NCBI RefSeq assembly: GCF_000215955.2 | Contig: NZ_AFNV02000001.1 | Span: forward strand, 124,001 to 188,000 | Reading direction: 5' to 3' | DNA length: 64,000 nucleotides | DNA from: Salinisphaera shabanensis E1L3A | GTDB taxonomy: Bacteria > Pseudomonadota > Gammaproteobacteria > Nevskiales > Salinisphaeraceae | Shown: positions 2,068 to 11,119 of the stretch, one piece after another | Layout: each line of letters begins with the position of its first letter | How positions within the stretch are numbered: the first letter of the stretch is position 1 | The notes under the pieces: model-generated | What the model saw: the letters and a program-made list of their open reading frames with translations, nothing else | Databases searched by the model: none | Told to the model about the DNA's origin: nothing | Translations under genes and position numbers: made by a program

Positions 2068-2135
2068 TCGATCGAGAATACGTCGGCGTACCACCGTGAC
2101 CTGCGATGGTGCGCCGGCCCGGACCGAGGGGCGTC

Positions 2136-3224
2136 ATGCCGTTCATTAATGACATGCTCGCCGAGCGCAACCATCGGTGCGCACCAGAACCAGCTAACGC
2201 TCAAACCCCGCCACCGCCCAACCGTACATCGCGGTTTCATTTCGAGCCGTCGGCGGTCATGGGCTTGCTACGCGAGCGTATCGTCGGCCAGCCGCAGGCA
2301 CTGGATACCGTCGAGGCTACACTCAAGATCATCAAGGCCGATATCGGCGATCCCCAGCGACCACTGCATGTCGGCCTGCTGCTCGGCCCCACCGGCGTGG
2401 GCAAGACCGAGTTGGTGCGCGTTCTAGCCGAAGCCATACACGGCCAGCGCGATGCCGTATGCCGTATCGATATGAACACGCTCGCCCAGGAACACTATGC
2501 CGCCGCGCTGACCGGCGCACCGCCGGGTTATGTCGGCAGCAAGGAAGGCACCACGCTGCTCGATGCCGACCGCATTGCCGGCAGTTTCGGCGCGCCGGGC
2601 ATCGTCTTGTTCGACGAGATCGAAAAAGCCAGCACCGAAGTCTCGCGCGCCCTGCTCAACGTCTTCGATAACGGCCAGCTCACACTCACCTCGGGCGCCA
2701 AGACCATCGATTTTCGAAATACGATGATCTTCATGACCAGCAACCTCGGCGCGCGCGAGATCGAGCGCTACCTGGCGCGTCTGAACAGAGGCTGGCAGCG
2801 ATTGTGGCCGACGTCCGAACAGCGCCAGCGCCGCGGTCTGCACCAAATCGTCGACCATGCCCTGCACGAGCAATTCGATCCCGAATTCGTCAATCGCATC
2901 GATACCGTCAGTCTGTTCAACTGGATCGAGCACGACATGCTCGACGCGCTTATCGATATCGAACTGCAGAAATTGAACAGCCGGTTGGCCCGAATCGGGC
3001 GTCGAGCCACGCTGGATACCTCGGCGCGCGCGCTATTGCACAAAGAAGGCTTCGATCGCCGCTACGGCGCCCGCGCCATGGGCCGTGCATTCCGTCGCCA
3101 TGTCGAACTGCCATTGGCCGAAGCATTGGCCGACGCAGACCTGCGTAAACGCGACCCTGACGATGTGCAGGTCATGCACGCCCATGTCGACGCACATAAG
3201 CGACTGTATTTTTCGAAAGACTAA
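2136..3224 (+). CDS. amiB: ClpB-like AAA+ ATPase of the amidase operon (AmiB)
   Basis: A single-ring AAA+ protein of 362 residues corresponding to the second ATPase module of ClpA/ClpB. It shows Walker A GPTGVGKT (84-91), a pore loop GYVGSKEG (131-138), Walker B IVLFDE (156-161), sensor-1 TSN and the sensor-2 RRYGARAMGR region near the end. There is no N-terminal substrate domain and no first ATPase ring. P. aeruginosa carries an equivalent gene, amiB, directly after amiE, where it is described as a chaperone-like ATPase. Its exact client is unknown, amidase assembly being the obvious guess. I chose the ATG at 2136 because GAGGGG sits just upstream; an ATG at 2106 has no ribosome site. Confidence 0.85.
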   Translation: MPFINDMLAERNHRCAPEPANAQTPPPPNRTSRFHFEPSAVMGLLRERIVGQPQALDTVEATLKIIKADIGDPQRPLHVGLLLGPTGVGKTELVRVLAEAIHGQRDAVCRIDMNTLAQEHYAAALTGAPPGYVGSKEGTTLLDADRIAGSFGAPGIVLFDEIEKASTEVSRALLNVFDNGQLTLTSGAKTIDFRNTMIFMTSNLGAREIERYLARLNRGWQRLWPTSEQRQRRGLHQIVDHALHEQFDPEFVNRIDTVSLFNWIEHDMLDALIDIELQKLNSRLARIGRRATLDTSARALLHKEGFDRRYGARAMGRAFRRHVELPLAEALADADLRKRDPDDVQVMHAHVDAHKRLYFSKD

Positions 3225-4753: not shown

Positions 4754-6739
4754 ATGGCCCAACTCAAAGTGGGCGGCCTGGCCGACCCAAACCGTCTCGC
4801 AAAAGATTTCGAACAGGTTCTCGAGCGCCTCGAAGCCGCGCGCTCCTTCGGCAAGGCCATGCAACAGCAACAGCTGCTGGCTCGCGCCCAGAAGTTGCTG
4901 AGAAGCCCGGAAGGTATCGCCCATCTTTACGCCTATGCACCGCGTTTCGATGCGGCCGGCGTATTCGCCAATGGCGACTGGGAAGCGCCGGAGGCACTGC
5001 AGCCGGCTCTGGTCAGCACGACACTGCGGGCTGGCGGTATCAACGCAACGCTGGAGTGCCTGAGCGAGCTGCGTATGCTCGCTATCGCCGAGCGTCTGAC
5101 CGAAGCCAGCGGCATGACGGCCGAGGAAGCCCGTCGTTTTCTTCAACAGATTCTGGCCAGCAACCTCGATCTGCTTTTCCCGGTCGCGACCGAAGAAACA
5201 CGTGAAGCGGATCCTGCCGCCGCCGAACGGGTCAAGAACCTGTTCGAATTCATACTGGAGCGACTCGGCGCGGCCGCGATTCTGGATGCCCTCGTCTACG
5301 AAGCCGAGCGTGTCCTACTGCAGCGCCCGATCATGGTGCAGCGTGTCGAGGCTCTGCTACGCGCCGCCGATCGTGCAACCGCCGAGCTACCGGACGATGA
5401 CCCGTCTGTTGCCCGCGCGCGGGAATGGATGCATGCGCTCAATGGCCCGACACCGCTGTCCCGTATCGGTAAGCGCGAGGACTATGCCGCCGCGCTATGC
5501 GAGCTGGATATCAACGCGCTCGCCGAGGAAGCCAACAATTTCGGCCAGGCCATGTCGCGTACCGGCCTGGTGTCGGCCCAGCATGCGGATCTGCTGCGTC
5601 ATCTGGTCGATAATGCCCCCGAACTGGTCGGCCCGGCGCTGGCGCTCAACGCCGTCGGCAAGGTGAGCCTGGGTGCGCATCAAACGCTGATATCCGACAT
5701 CATCCGGTTCGCCATCTGGCGCGAGACGGCGCGCTCGATCTATGGCCTGTCGAAACTGCTCGAACAGGGCATGACGTTCATACGCCCTGTGTTGCCAGGT
5801 CTGCGCCGCCTGATGGTGCTGGCCATTCACCCATCCGTGGCTGAAAATTTGCGCGCCTCCAGCGAGTGGCAGGACCCGCCCGATGCGAACGTACTACTGC
5901 TCGCCGGCACGTTGTCCGTGCTCGGTCAGCCGCGCGGCGTCGACCAGGGCCATAACCCGACCTGCCAGGCAGCCCGGGCGATCAGCCTATGGGCACAGAA
6001 CGATGTCGGCTATCTACTGGAGCTGATCGCCTTTGCGGCCCGCGAAAACGAATTGCTGATGCATTTCGAGGGGCAGTCGATCCGTTCAAGCGAGCTATCG
6101 TTTGGACTGGCGACCACCTTGCACACCGAGTTGGATCCGGTATCGCTGCTACTCACGCCGCATCTAGACCGTATTTACATGGAGATGAGCCGACATACGA
6201 TCGGCCGTGTGGGCGACGGTCACCGCTGGGTGAATCCCGAATTGCACGGCTGGTGGGTCCATCGCGGCTTTGGCGAGCTGCTGGACACGGCCACCGGCGG
6301 TGTCCACGGCTTCGATTCGTTCATCCGCGATTTCTATGCGTCCTACCACCCGCTGTACAACGGCGGTCGTGATCTGGTCTATGCCCAGCCCTGTGGTATC
6401 GCCACCACCAACTTCAACGCCGAACTGGTGGGGTGGCACGCTCTGTCGATCCAGCGTGTCGCCTACGACCCGGCTGGCGAATGGCGGGTCTATTTCTTCA
6501 ATCCGAACCGCGACAAGGGCCAGAACTGGGGCCAGGAGATCGTCACATCCACCCATAGCCACGGCGAACTGGAAGGCGAGTCTTCGCTGCCGTTCGAGCA
6601 GTTCGCCTCGCGGCTTTATGTCTATCACTATAAAAGCCGGGAAATCGGCGATGCCAGCGCCGTGCCCGATGAGGCGGTCGCACGTATTCGCACGCTGGTA
6701 GCCGAGGGCTGGGCAGCCGATCGGGCCTGGGAGGACTGA
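4754..6739 (+). CDS. Large protein with C-terminal papain-like cysteine peptidase site
   Basis: I do not recognise this 661-residue protein as a named family. The first ~390 residues are helical and Leu/Ala/Glu-rich without signal peptide or membrane segment. The last ~260 residues carry an apparent papain-type site. Gln398 lies exactly six residues before Cys404 (DQGHNPTCQAARAISLWA), the spacing of papain's oxyanion Gln and nucleophile. His562 sits in GWHALSIQRV. Asn583 sits in FFNPN, followed by GQNWG, which mirrors papain's NSWGxxWG. The start is set at 4754 by GGAGGG upstream; earlier GTG/ATG codons at 4661/4667 have no ribosome site. It stands alone, ahead of a minus-strand gene. Peptidase, transglutaminase or amidase activity are all possible; substrate unknown. 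Confidence 0.6.
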   Translation: MAQLKVGGLADPNRLAKDFEQVLERLEAARSFGKAMQQQQLLARAQKLLRSPEGIAHLYAYAPRFDAAGVFANGDWEAPEALQPALVSTTLRAGGINATLECLSELRMLAIAERLTEASGMTAEEARRFLQQILASNLDLLFPVATEETREADPAAAERVKNLFEFILERLGAAAILDALVYEAERVLLQRPIMVQRVEALLRAADRATAELPDDDPSVARAREWMHALNGPTPLSRIGKREDYAAALCELDINALAEEANNFGQAMSRTGLVSAQHADLLRHLVDNAPELVGPALALNAVGKVSLGAHQTLISDIIRFAIWRETARSIYGLSKLLEQGMTFIRPVLPGLRRLMVLAIHPSVAENLRASSEWQDPPDANVLLLAGTLSVLGQPRGVDQGHNPTCQAARAISLWAQNDVGYLLELIAFAARENELLMHFEGQSIRSSELSFGLATTLHTELDPVSLLLTPHLDRIYMEMSRHTIGRVGDGHRWVNPELHGWWVHRGFGELLDTATGGVHGFDSFIRDFYASYHPLYNGGRDLVYAQPCGIATTNFNAELVGWHALSIQRVAYDPAGEWRVYFFNPNRDKGQNWGQEIVTSTHSHGELEGESSLPFEQFASRLYVYHYKSREIGDASAVPDEAVARIRTLVAEGWAADRAWED

Positions 6740-6854: not shown

Positions 6855-8081
6855 CTAGACGTAGAAGTCGAGTTCTTCCTGGTGCTTGAGCAGATCACGC
6901 AGCTGATGCGGATTGTCGCCAAAGAAGAACACCAGCCCCCAATGGGTACCAAAAGCGGTCCGCTTGGTGACCGTATCCTGCAATGGTGCGGCCAGCTCGT
7001 GGAAATCGAAGTACGGATGTTCTTCGGTTTCTTTCGGGATTTCGAGCTTGCTGACCACACGTTTACGCGGGTATACGCCGAAGCAGCCAGCATAGCCTTG
7101 CGCATCCTTGACCGGTTCCGGGAAGAACGCATCGATCTCTTCCTGCTTGGTCTTCGGGTCCATGACCAGAATCGTGGCCTGATAGGCATTAAAGCCATAG
7201 GCACGTTCGATCAGCTCAAAGGCCTTGAAGCCCGGCGGGCGATAGGCCACTTCGCCGAAGTACATGGTGCCATCGGAGGTCACGAAGTATTCCGGGTGAA
7301 TCTGGCCGAACTTGATATCGAAGGTCTTGATGAGCTTCTCGATCTGTTCGGTGATGGCCGTACGCCAGCTCTCGAGTTCCGGCGTGGCCGGCACGAACAC
7401 GGAGTAGCCGAGCGTGACGTATTCCGAAATATTCAGGAACTGGATCTTGCCGTCCCAGATCCATGCTTCGACCGCGAATTCCCAGCCATCGAGATGGCTT
7501 TCCATGAGCAGCGGGTATTCGCTGTCCGGGATCGAGTCGATTTCCTCGGCCGACTTGATCATGCGATGACCGAGGCAACCGGCCTTGTCGAAGGCCTTGA
7601 GATGGATCGGATCTTCCGGATCGCCGTCGAGCTTGAGCAGCGTCTGGTTCACGCGCTTGAAGAAACGATAGACATCGTCCTTCTCGTGCGCTTCTTCAAA
7701 AATACCGACACGGATACCACCAAGCTGCGCACGACGCTTCATCAGCGCCTTATCGCGGAACAGAACCGCCTGACCATGCAGGCGCGGGTTGTCCATGAGC
7801 ACGGCGTTGATCGCGCCCGCCCATTCGACCGTTTCCTCGAACAACGGAATGGCGACGTCGACACCCTCGTCCTTCAGCTTCTCGGCGATTTCCATCGAAC
7901 GATCATTCAACCGCTCGAAATTCCAAGGAATATACGGAATATCGTGCTGTTTACAGTAGTCTTCTGCCCAATCCGGGGCAACGACCACATAGCGCCGATC
8001 GAAACGATCTGCCGCTTCGACCGCGCCCAGCGACCAACCCAACAGGGCGACGTAACCCTTTTCGGGATTCTTTTCGGCCAT
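6855..8081 (-). CDS. ATP-grasp domain protein, substrate unknown
   Basis: A 408-residue soluble protein with the layout of carboxylate-amine/thiol ATP-grasp ligases. It has an N-terminal pre-ATP-grasp region (ALLGWSLGAVEAADRF, VAIPLFEE), a central phosphate-binding part, and the catalytic half with MESHLDGWEFAVEAWIWDGKIQ and QIHPEYFVTSDGTMYFGEVAYRPPG, where acidic residues would bind Mg-ATP. Such enzymes couple an acid to an amine through an acyl phosphate. The substrate cannot be deduced and no biosynthetic neighbours help. The ATG at 8081 is preferred because GAGGAG lies just upstream; that motif overlaps an in-frame GTG at 8087. It is a single-gene unit ending at a strong terminator. Confidence 0.75.
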   Translation of the reverse strand: MAEKNPEKGYVALLGWSLGAVEAADRFDRRYVVVAPDWAEDYCKQHDIPYIPWNFERLNDRSMEIAEKLKDEGVDVAIPLFEETVEWAGAINAVLMDNPRLHGQAVLFRDKALMKRRAQLGGIRVGIFEEAHEKDDVYRFFKRVNQTLLKLDGDPEDPIHLKAFDKAGCLGHRMIKSAEEIDSIPDSEYPLLMESHLDGWEFAVEAWIWDGKIQFLNISEYVTLGYSVFVPATPELESWRTAITEQIEKLIKTFDIKFGQIHPEYFVTSDGTMYFGEVAYRPPGFKAFELIERAYGFNAYQATILVMDPKTKQEEIDAFFPEPVKDAQGYAGCFGVYPRKRVVSKLEIPKETEEHPYFDFHELAAPLQDTVTKRTAFGTHWGLVFFFGDNPHQLRDLLKHQEELDFYV

Positions 8082-8461
8082 AACCACTCCTCATAAGGAA
8101 AATACGCCGTTGACTCTAGCATACCGGCTGATCGAGTCCGCGCTGCATGGCCTGCACAGCCGTTGTTTTCGCGATTCTCGCGGGCCTTGACAGATATCGG
8201 GACAGCGCCGGCCTAACGCACCTTGTACTCCACATTTTGAAATTTGTATCGCGTACCGCTATCGCGATCGGGCCATCCGGCCCTGAGTCGTCGCTAAGCG
8301 ATTGTTGGCACACGCCTAGGCGGCTTTGACAGCGTGTTGGAACGTCCGACTCCGCCGGGCAACAGAACGGTTTACGAGTGAAAGCGCGCTTATTGTCCGG
8401 CTTCGAACCGAACACGACTTGGCTGTTAGCCTTCCACCAAAGATGACGATTCAGCTCATCG
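8082..8461. other. Intergenic region, no gene seen
   Basis: A 380-base gap between the start of the ATP-grasp gene and the end of the ROK kinase. Only short unsupported reading frames cross it, with no ribosome sites. It should contain the promoter of the minus-strand ATP-grasp gene, but I cannot point to a convincing -35/-10 pair. No terminator hairpin with a T-run follows the ROK kinase. Confidence 0.4.
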
Positions 8462-9614: not shown

Positions 9615-10481
9615 TCAGGCGATTGCGTCCGTTAGCAGCGCGGCGCAGTCATCATCGAGCTTGCGTGTGATCAGATCGTCCGCGCGCGTGCGGCCATGAT
9701 TGATCGCCATGATGGGCAATCCGCGCACGGCGGCCTCGCGCACAAAGCGAAAGCCTGACCACACCATTAGCGATGAGCCGACCACGAGCACGGCCTCGGC
9801 CCGCGCAAGCCCGGTCCAGGCACGCGCCACCGTCTTTTTCGGCACCGCCCCGCCGAAAAAGACCACGTCCGGCTTGAGAATGCCGCCACAAACGGGGCAA
9901 TCGGGGACCACGAAGCGTTCGTAGTCCACATCACCGAGCTCGATATCACCGTCGGGGCGTATGGCGTCGCTATCGTGCAGCCAACCCGCATTATGGTCGA
10001 TGAGCATTTCCTGTACCCGATGGCGCGACAGCCGCGTGTCGCAATCCAGGCAAACCACGCGATCAAGCCGGCCATGCAGATCGATCACACCACGATTGCC
10101 TGCGGCTTGATGCAACCCGTCCACGTTCTGGGTCACCAGGGTGCCGATATGCCCGGCTCTGCCGAGTCGGTGCAACGCATGATGTGCGGCATTCGGCCGG
10201 GCACGCGCAACGGCCGGCCAGCCGGCCATGCTGCGCGCCCAGTAGCGCCTACGCTTAGACAGCTGCCCAACGAATGCCTGGTGCTGGATGGGCGTGGCAC
10301 CTTTCCAGCCGCCGTCGCGATCGCGATAGTCGGGAATGCCCGAACGCGTGCTAATGCCGGCGCCAGTGAGTACAAACAGGCGCCGGTTCGCACCAAGAAA
10401 CTTGCGTAGCGCGGCGACATGATCGGCTCTTGGCGCCGCGCCCTCGTCAGATTGGGCAAGCAGCTCGTCTGGAACTTTCAT
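9615..10481 (-). CDS. Sir2 family NAD-dependent protein deacylase (sirtuin)
   Basis: 288 residues. The NAD-binding GAGIS (40-44) with SGIPDYR, TQNVDGLH (117-124), the catalytic His136 in DLHGR, and the two zinc CxxC pairs (C144/C147 in CLDC, and CPVC later) are all present, followed by the VVGSSLMVWSGF Rossmann segment. Sirtuins remove acyl groups from lysines, consuming NAD. I start it at 10481, where its ATG overlaps the stop of the upstream HAD gene (ATGA), implying translational coupling; the frame is open further upstream only inside that gene. The Ala-Tyr/Arg desuccinylase signature of the CobB class is not evident, so simple deacetylation is the default. Confidence 0.9.
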   Translation of the reverse strand: MKVPDELLAQSDEGAAPRADHVAALRKFLGANRRLFVLTGAGISTRSGIPDYRDRDGGWKGATPIQHQAFVGQLSKRRRYWARSMAGWPAVARARPNAAHHALHRLGRAGHIGTLVTQNVDGLHQAAGNRGVIDLHGRLDRVVCLDCDTRLSRHRVQEMLIDHNAGWLHDSDAIRPDGDIELGDVDYERFVVPDCPVCGGILKPDVVFFGGAVPKKTVARAWTGLARAEAVLVVGSSLMVWSGFRFVREAAVRGLPIMAINHGRTRADDLITRKLDDDCAALLTDAIA

Positions 10482-11119
10482 GCTGTCGCCACCACGCCGT
10501 GTGCGGCCAAATCGGCTGTGAGACGATCGATATTTTCGAAGCGCAGCGCCTGCCAGCCTGCCGCAATAGCGCCATCGACGTTGATCTGACGATCGTCGAT
10601 CAGCATGCACGCGCCGGGGCGGGCACCAAGCGCATGGGCCACGTGCGCAAACCCGCGTGCGTCCGGCTTCGCGAAACCGATCTCCTGCGAGGCAAACGCG
10701 CGTTCCAGCACCTCGAAAAAACGGAAATTTTGTTGCATATAACGCCAGTGGACAGCGTTGGTATTACTGAAACAGGCGATATGGTGATACTTGGCCAGGT
10801 CTTTCATGAGCGCAACCATGGCGGGACGTTCACCCAGAAGCATCGCTTCCAACTCACCCGTGAGTATCTCGGACTCCAGTGGATCGACCAGCGTCTGATT
10901 CAGCGCGTCGTGAAAAACGGCCTCATCGAGCGCCCCGATCTGAAACCGTTCTGCGATCGAGAACGGTTCGGTCGTGAAACGCTCGCGCAGCGCCTCGCCG
11001 AGCAGCGCCGGCGACGTACGAGTACGGCGAGCAAGTTCGCCGATAGTGACGTCAGCTGCCTGGACATCCACGACCACGCCGCCGAGGTCGAACACCAACC
11101 AGTCGATGGGATCATTCAT
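10478..11119 (-). CDS. HAD superfamily hydrolase (YihX-like)
   Basis: A 213-residue haloacid-dehalogenase phosphatase with a helical cap inserted after the first motif (subfamily IA). Nucleophile Asp11 lies in FDLGGVVVD. As in sugar-phosphatase YihX the usual second Asp (DxD) is replaced by Gly. Motif II is CFSNTN, motif III the Lys in FAKPDA, and motif IV LIDDR. The likely role is dephosphorylation of a small sugar or nucleotide phosphate. The start at 11119 begins the conserved domain; the frame is open upstream but the extra residues look non-coding. It is translationally coupled to the sirtuin downstream. Confidence 0.8.
   Translation of the reverse strand: MNDPIDWLVFDLGGVVVDVQAADVTIGELARRTRTSPALLGEALRERFTTEPFSIAERFQIGALDEAVFHDALNQTLVDPLESEILTGELEAMLLGERPAMVALMKDLAKYHHIACFSNTNAVHWRYMQQNFRFFEVLERAFASQEIGFAKPDARGFAHVAHALGARPGACMLIDDRQINVDGAIAAGWQALRFENIDRLTADLAAHGVVATA

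Follow-up and report, generated by a model that had tools for sequence, protein, structure and literature searches.

In enzymes of the papain fold a cysteine attacks an amide or a thioester, and ATP-grasp ligases make an amide by way of an acyl phosphate. The closest described systems to the protein considered here are the calpain protease core (C2, PF00648), in which, as in this protein, a Gln stands six residues before the Cys (seen in three bacterial calpains) and is followed by the His and then the Asn, and the peptidases of the papain (C1, PF00112) and staphopain (C47) families, which share with it the fold and the Q/C/H/N order. For the gene beside it the closest described systems are the L-amino-acid ligases BL00235, RizA and YwfE/BacD, and for a third gene that recurs near the two they are the HDAC-like amidohydrolases and HDAC6 (PF00850). 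PMC10318531 names BtrH and phytochelatin synthase as papain-fold transferases within it and counts vasohibin, which has a Cys-His-Ser site, among the papain-like proteins.

The locus lies in a window of 64,000 nucleotides, the whole stretch of DNA that was analysed, on contig C41 of a 3.76 Mb genome. An earlier note, made from the letters of the window, had read here a protein with a papain-type Gln/Cys/His/Asn site, and the reading frame at 4754-6739 (+) does encode 661 residues with Q398, C404, H562 and N583 where that note placed them. An alternative upstream start would give 692 residues, and the 661-residue start is reasonable because homologues align from about residue 1-14 onward. No signal peptide is visible when the sequence is judged by eye, as the note had also said. 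The features of the locus are as follows.

4754..6739, + strand: papain-fold protein P0001, 661 aa (reading frame, homologue alignments, AlphaFold2, VIA-align)
4754..5833, + strand: N-terminal region, predicted all-helical, residues ~1-360 (AlphaFold2 secondary structure; Foldseek best E 0.04)
5834..6736, + strand: predicted papain/calpain-like catalytic region, residues ~361-661 (VIA-align Z 8.1 with the calpain-3 core over 364-626)
5945..5947, + strand: codon of Gln398, oxyanion-hole position (71/71; 94/94)
5963..5965, + strand: codon of Cys404, nucleophile (71/71; 94/94)
6437..6439, + strand: codon of His562 (70/71, the other being X; 93/94, the other being X)
6500..6502, + strand: codon of Asn583 (71/71; 94/94)
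6855..8087, - strand: companion ATP-grasp protein, 410 aa, L-amino-acid-ligase-like, convergent with the papain-fold gene (recurrence, profiles, model, co-occurrence)

The order Q, C (six residues on), H, N may by itself be chance, but the conservation of the set is not. Among 94 distinct aligned homologues that span all four positions, 93 read QCHN, and the sole QCXN sequence, L079, has X throughout the stretch around His562, so that no readable homologue varies at these residues. The same holds for a set of 71 sequences, window protein included, that was obtained from 86 rows, 85 of them loci and one the window protein, by removing eight shorter than 600 residues and the exact duplicates; the 94 were drawn from a larger set of loci. 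Further polar residues are invariant across 53 sequences (E439, D461, D472, R485, D488, H490, E605 and E609), which would be more in keeping with a specific small substrate than with a broad protease. In-frame stops were reported in some copies of the gene, and in the three examined (L086, L100, L103) none falls inside the aligned region.

The AlphaFold2 model, built from an alignment of 53 sequences, has a mean pLDDT of 91 and a pTM of 0.89. Residues 12-391 are nearly all helical in it, which agrees with the helical N-terminal half described in the earlier note, and the whole-chain model has no significant match by Foldseek (best E 0.04). In the model C404 opens a helix, H562 lies within the strand 558-571 and N583 just past the strand 577-582, which is the papain order. 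When the Foldseek list was realigned with VIA-align, residues 364-627 found their best partners in calpain cores (Z 8.1, 204 residues, 4.5 A), a Z near 8 being in the range that the tool grades as middling, and for the C-terminal half they are followed by staphopains (Z 7.1), a dipeptidyl peptidase, the mite allergen Der p 1, cathepsin B, ficin and bleomycin hydrolase; the matches listed for this half are papain-fold chains, at Z 5.8-8.1 and across model residues 360-637. The aligned ranges begin at model residue 393 against residue 13 of staphopain, 23 of Der p 1 and 14 of ficin, and if the first 12 residues are ungapped Q398/C404 would fall on 18/24, 28/34 and 19/25, which we take to be the active-site Gln and Cys of these enzymes. 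For human bleomycin hydrolase (7v5t, 392 on 63) C404 does not fall on C73 unless there is a gap, and the ranges for the calpains say nothing on the Gln/Cys register. Of the two refuting conditions of the note, variation of the residues among homologues does not occur, and a lack of clustering in space is countered only indirectly, by the papain-fold chains listed and by these ranges. The comparison with papain-like folds that the note had proposed thus matches the predicted C-terminal half to calpains and papain-like chains, and by this modelled fold together with the conserved Q/C/H/N set the protein belongs to the papain-like (clan CA) superfamily.

Within that superfamily it has no matching family model. 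There is no convincing existing model for it in Pfam, NCBIfam, PHROGs, PADLOC or the PDB sequences: P0001 has no match in Pfam (E up to 10), NCBIfam or PADLOC and one PHROGs family at E 0.2, and scans of 53 members give scattered weak matches in one or two members each, the best at E 0.012. Neither P0001 nor the 53 members match the calpain profile PF00648, PF00112 is absent among the matches of the 53 (E up to 1), and no BtrH_N or phytochelatin synthase match was found in Pfam for P0001 or the members. A search of the PDB sequences with P0001 as a single query found no chain, and with a profile only two designed helical proteins (E 0.72 and 1.9). When profiles were compared with bacterial sequences of the two families, three calpains and two C1 peptidases from searches that found them in 2 of 200 and 2 of 249 genomes, the result was non-significant (E 0.38 and 0.1, for single pairs), probably for want of depth. 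The protein differs from the calpain core, with which it is only 12-18% identical, by its helical N-terminal half and its partner ligase. From the C1 and C47 peptidases, whose alignments begin at model residue 393 just ahead of the active-site stretch, it differs in having no profile match, no visible signal peptide and a length of 661 residues. It is a new family inside a known superfamily, and the suggestion of an undescribed cysteine peptidase or transferase family stands as far as the predicted papain-fold half, the invariant residues and the lack of a family match are concerned, but not in the lack of a companion that went with it. The core of the note's observation is right, and firmer than it was put there.

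That companion is the ATP-grasp gene that adjoins the papain-fold gene in the window, and it recurs beside it across classes and phyla as judged by record titles. Of 56 loci, 50 have a relative near the papain-fold gene: it is directly upstream and co-directional in 40, downstream and convergent as in the window in eight, and downstream and co-directional in two. The two genes are 44-545 bases apart, save in L032 and L037, where a deacetylase gene stands between them (1.2-1.4 kb). In four of the six loci that have no ATP-grasp gene the papain-fold gene is partial at a contig end (L076, L078, L080, L081), and the other two, L044 and L046, have full flanks.

The model of the companion (pLDDT 79, Foldseek E 3e-18) has as its top five VIA-align entries L-amino-acid ligases at Z 25.2-27.4, with BL00235 at 27.4, RizA at 25.8 and YwfE/BacD at 25.2-25.5. 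BL00235 and RizA align over about 345 residues at 16-17% identity, their sequences are matched at E 0.0004 and 0.018 respectively (0.0005 and 0.0009 with a profile), and the HxE and ExxxR stretches of the companion align with theirs. Its match to ATP-grasp_4 is under the Pfam cut-off (24 against 27 bits). As modelled, the companion has the ATP-grasp fold of BL00235 type; unlike BL00235 and RizA it is tied to a papain-fold partner. It is also the better conserved of the two proteins, with a mean column identity of 84% (36 rows) against 56% for the papain-fold protein (53 rows).

The tie between the two genes extends to their presence in genomes. When 398 genomes of the phylum were sampled, 11 matched the papain-fold profile and the same 11 the ligase profile; here the best three to four candidates per genome were scored, thus copy numbers are lower bounds. 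In the 121 genomes of the family of G130, which is likely the Halomonadaceae given the match on a Halomonas plasmid, the papain-fold gene is found in 85 and the ligase in 84, all of the 84 within the 85, and no genome has the ligase without the papain-fold gene. The 85th genome, G458, holds a broken remnant with pieces spanning residues 361-562 only, and apart from such remnants every match is strong and covers the full length. Between the two proteins the distance matrices are correlated (r 0.85 over 32 loci, and r 0.83 over the 21 outside the clade of the window, with 0 of 2000 permutations as high in each case), a correlation that is also expected from a shared species tree. Copy numbers and positions are looser: carriers can have more papain-fold than ligase copies, as in G130 with five full-length papain-fold matches and two ligase genes, and in the stretches examined the papain-fold gene stands without the ligase in seven loci (L044, L046, L124, L125, L130, L131, L137) and the ligase without the papain-fold gene in L121, L129 and, at a contig end, L123. 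As the two genes are inherited together, a shared intermediate is the simplest reading.

The papain-fold protein is present in 17 of 61 relatives of the window genome, 14 of the same genus (its own genome included), two of the family and one of the order. Six short peptide patterns taken from the window protein were run once over 84,980 species genomes, a scan that is not exhaustive, and gave the 56 loci, by record title mostly Gamma- and Alphaproteobacteria, with others in Desulfobulbaceae MAGs, Neopusillimonas, a single Phormidium and a single Dehalococcoidia. The hosts named include Salinisphaera, Halorhodospira, Roseinatronobacter, Rhabdonatronobacter, Microbulbifer, Pararhizobium haloflavum and sediment MAGs, many of them organisms of saline or soda habitats; an exception to this pattern is a Loktanella MAG from cattle rectum. 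The protein of L030, recorded as Endozoicomonas sp. G2_2, is 89% identical to that of the window and has neighbours common to Salinisphaera records; the records of L030 and of L039 (Phormidium willei) look wrongly named or contaminated.

A phage origin was rejected, as no relative of the papain-fold protein was found in 50,697 phage records (E up to 1) or among 161 pattern matches in viral contigs. Of 72,556 plasmid records one has a match, the 1.83 Mb replicon of Halomonas sp. PA16-9, where a reading frame without annotation that reads as a ligase lies directly upstream. Gene remnants were seen at G458:C1:434837-435443, G547:C2:994507-994941 and G130:C10:1017446-1017613. The window genome has a second papain-fold copy, about 45% identical (G000:C38:3560-5512, locus L124), with no adjoining ligase and a TRAP binding protein beside it by Pfam. 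Another copy without an adjoining ligase, in L131, has ABC importer genes (Pfam) that are common to L130 by BLAST grouping. These TRAP and ABC importer genes are judged to be common genes.

A third partner is frequent among the carriers. A PF00850 gene lies near the pair in five of the 56 loci (L032, L037, L041, L042, L045), of which three are related Desulfobulbaceae MAGs, and the majority of the 56 have no HDAC-type gene nearby; it is this gene that stands between the two others in L032 and L037. Another is found near the pair in G253 (L133), and in G198 (L129) one lies 3.2 kb from a ligase copy that has no papain-fold gene. Pfam was run on three of these copies (E <1e-89), and the others were assigned by BLAST grouping. 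In the 121-genome family 67 genomes have the HDAC (E up to 1e-80), all within the 84 ligase carriers, an overlap with a hypergeometric probability of 3e-18 that ignores kinship, most carriers being of one genus; the distance to a ligase gene is 5 kb or less for eight of the HDAC genes, where about 0.4 would be expected. In G547 an HDAC-ligase pair is followed by remnants of a papain-fold gene.

The association was also seen in 80 genomes of the phylum sample, namely ten of the 11 carriers (the window's own excluded) and 70 of the 387 others, chosen by their number. A close HDAC is found in eight of the ten, with a best match of 562-638 bits, and not in G455 and G076; none of the 70 genomes without the pair exceeds 241 bits. 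By this gap in bit score the pair-linked HDAC is a distinct subgroup within the HDAC-like amidohydrolases/HDAC6. Each of the 14 genomes in the window's genus has a relative, and in 12 of them, the window's included, it is only 44-47% identical. The HH, DxDxHHG, Asp287 and GGY positions are invariant in six aligned copies of seven, and from their sequences the zinc and catalytic residues look intact in these six. For the copy at L041:3024-4148 the highest-scoring PDB sequences are those of two-domain HDAC6 (365 bits summed over two stretches), with bacterial HDAH at about 220 and single-domain HDAC6 at about 184 bits.

Besides the HDAC no other widely conserved neighbour of the pair was seen, and neighbour clusters 2 and 4 were dropped as reverse-strand shadow frames of the papain-fold and ligase genes. 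Within the window several other genes lie close by. That at 2106-3224 (+) encodes a stand-alone AAA+ protein of 372 residues that resembles only the second ATPase domain of ClpB/ClpA, and a relative of it adjoins also in the related loci L034 and L080. The stretch 71-2067 has in a row a partial formamidase, an RPWMISH-domain zinc-ribbon protein and an aliphatic amidase, which together probably serve to assimilate nitrogen from amides. The gene at 9615-10610 (-) encodes what we take to be a sirtuin (GAGISTRSGIPDYRD), and relatives of it lie near the pair in L034 and L035.

The reading that is preferred, with a probability of about 0.55, is that the papain-fold enzyme and the ATP-grasp ligase, joined in some carriers by the HDAC-type deacetylase, make up a cytosolic amide-bond unit. 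In the manner of L-amino-acid ligases, the ATP-grasp enzyme would convert a carboxylate to an acyl phosphate and join it to an amine; the papain-fold enzyme may then take the amide made by the ligase as a thioester on Cys404, to be hydrolysed or passed as an acyl group to another amine, and the HDAC-type zinc deacetylase may free an acetylated amine within the same pathway. That substrate would be shared by both enzymes. A small amide is favoured because the partner resembles a ligase of free amino acids, because of the invariant polar residues and because a recurrent deacetylase could supply or trim the amine. The product might be a small peptide-like or amine-conjugate metabolite, and an osmolyte is a first guess, since saline or soda environments are home to many of the hosts. 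Points that weigh against this reading are the middling Z and the non-significant Foldseek and profile comparisons, the unequal conservation and copy numbers of the two proteins, the copies of either gene that stand alone, and the lack of a close HDAC in G455, G076 and around most of the 56 loci. NAGGN synthesis, carbamoylglutamine amide and tubulin tyrosine ligase were also taken into account. No described role for the pair was found in titles and the openings of abstracts, and a mention is possible in the literature on ATP-grasp amidoligases (Iyer et al. 2009).

An unlikely though serious alternative is that the papain-fold protein is a biosynthetic acyltransferase, which would move an acyl or aminoacyl group made by the ligase to an acceptor and so yield a secondary metabolite or peptide. 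Papain-fold transferases do exist, with BtrH and phytochelatin synthase given as such in PMC10318531, and the partner is of ligase type; however, neither of these two families is matched in Pfam and there are no conserved biosynthetic neighbours except the HDAC. Nor did the frames of 18-150 codons that lie up to 1.5 kb from the genes of 59 paired loci include a widely shared one that could be a RiPP precursor; a gene farther away or shorter would escape this search. The two largest sets of small frames, of six loci each, are antisense to the 5' end of one ligase type and to the HDAC gene, and the remaining sets are each in four loci or fewer; such precursors were rejected on their antisense position or their few loci.

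It is more doubtful that the system carries out a reversible protein modification, in which the ATP-grasp enzyme would add an amino acid to a protein, the papain-fold enzyme remove it and the HDAC deacetylate the same protein. Tubulin tyrosine ligase, vasohibin and HDAC6 form the eukaryotic analogue of such a scheme. All three enzyme types are present here, two-domain HDAC6 heads the PDB sequences for the close HDAC, and the large conserved helical half could dock proteins. Against this, the partner resembles ligases of free amino acids, and no further conserved neighbour presents itself as the target, which could be elsewhere. Tubulin tyrosine ligase is absent among the matches listed for the partner, an absence that is compatible with the scheme. 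Vasohibin is itself papain-like, but the site given for it in PMC10318531 is Cys-His-Ser as opposed to Cys-His-Asn here. A full bacterial writer-eraser, with the ATP-grasp enzyme adding and the papain-fold enzyme removing an amino acid on a protein and an HDAC6-type enzyme acting on that very target, is by this analogy a rather improbable form of it.

Very improbable is an ordinary cytosolic protease whose link with the ligase would be a common regulon in salt-adapted bacteria rather than a shared substrate, since whilst it would suit the peptidase fold and catalytic set and the differing gene orientation among lineages, the ligase co-occurs with the gene in the 398- and 121-genome samples and adjoins it in otherwise unrelated surroundings, where the HDAC is the sole further gene to be widely shared.

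The importance of the pair lies in two genes that, where intact, are present or absent together in two samples of genomes, with neither in a named family of its own. The ligase and cysteine enzyme, often with a deacetylase, in mostly salt-loving bacteria suggest an undescribed enzyme system. It may prove to be a new pathway for an osmolyte or amine conjugate in salt-adapted bacteria, an amide-forming enzyme pair of use in biocatalysis, or a reversible protein modification; the last, as a writer-eraser, is the more surprising alternative and if true would parallel, in prokaryotes, the scheme by which tubulin is tyrosinated and deacetylated.
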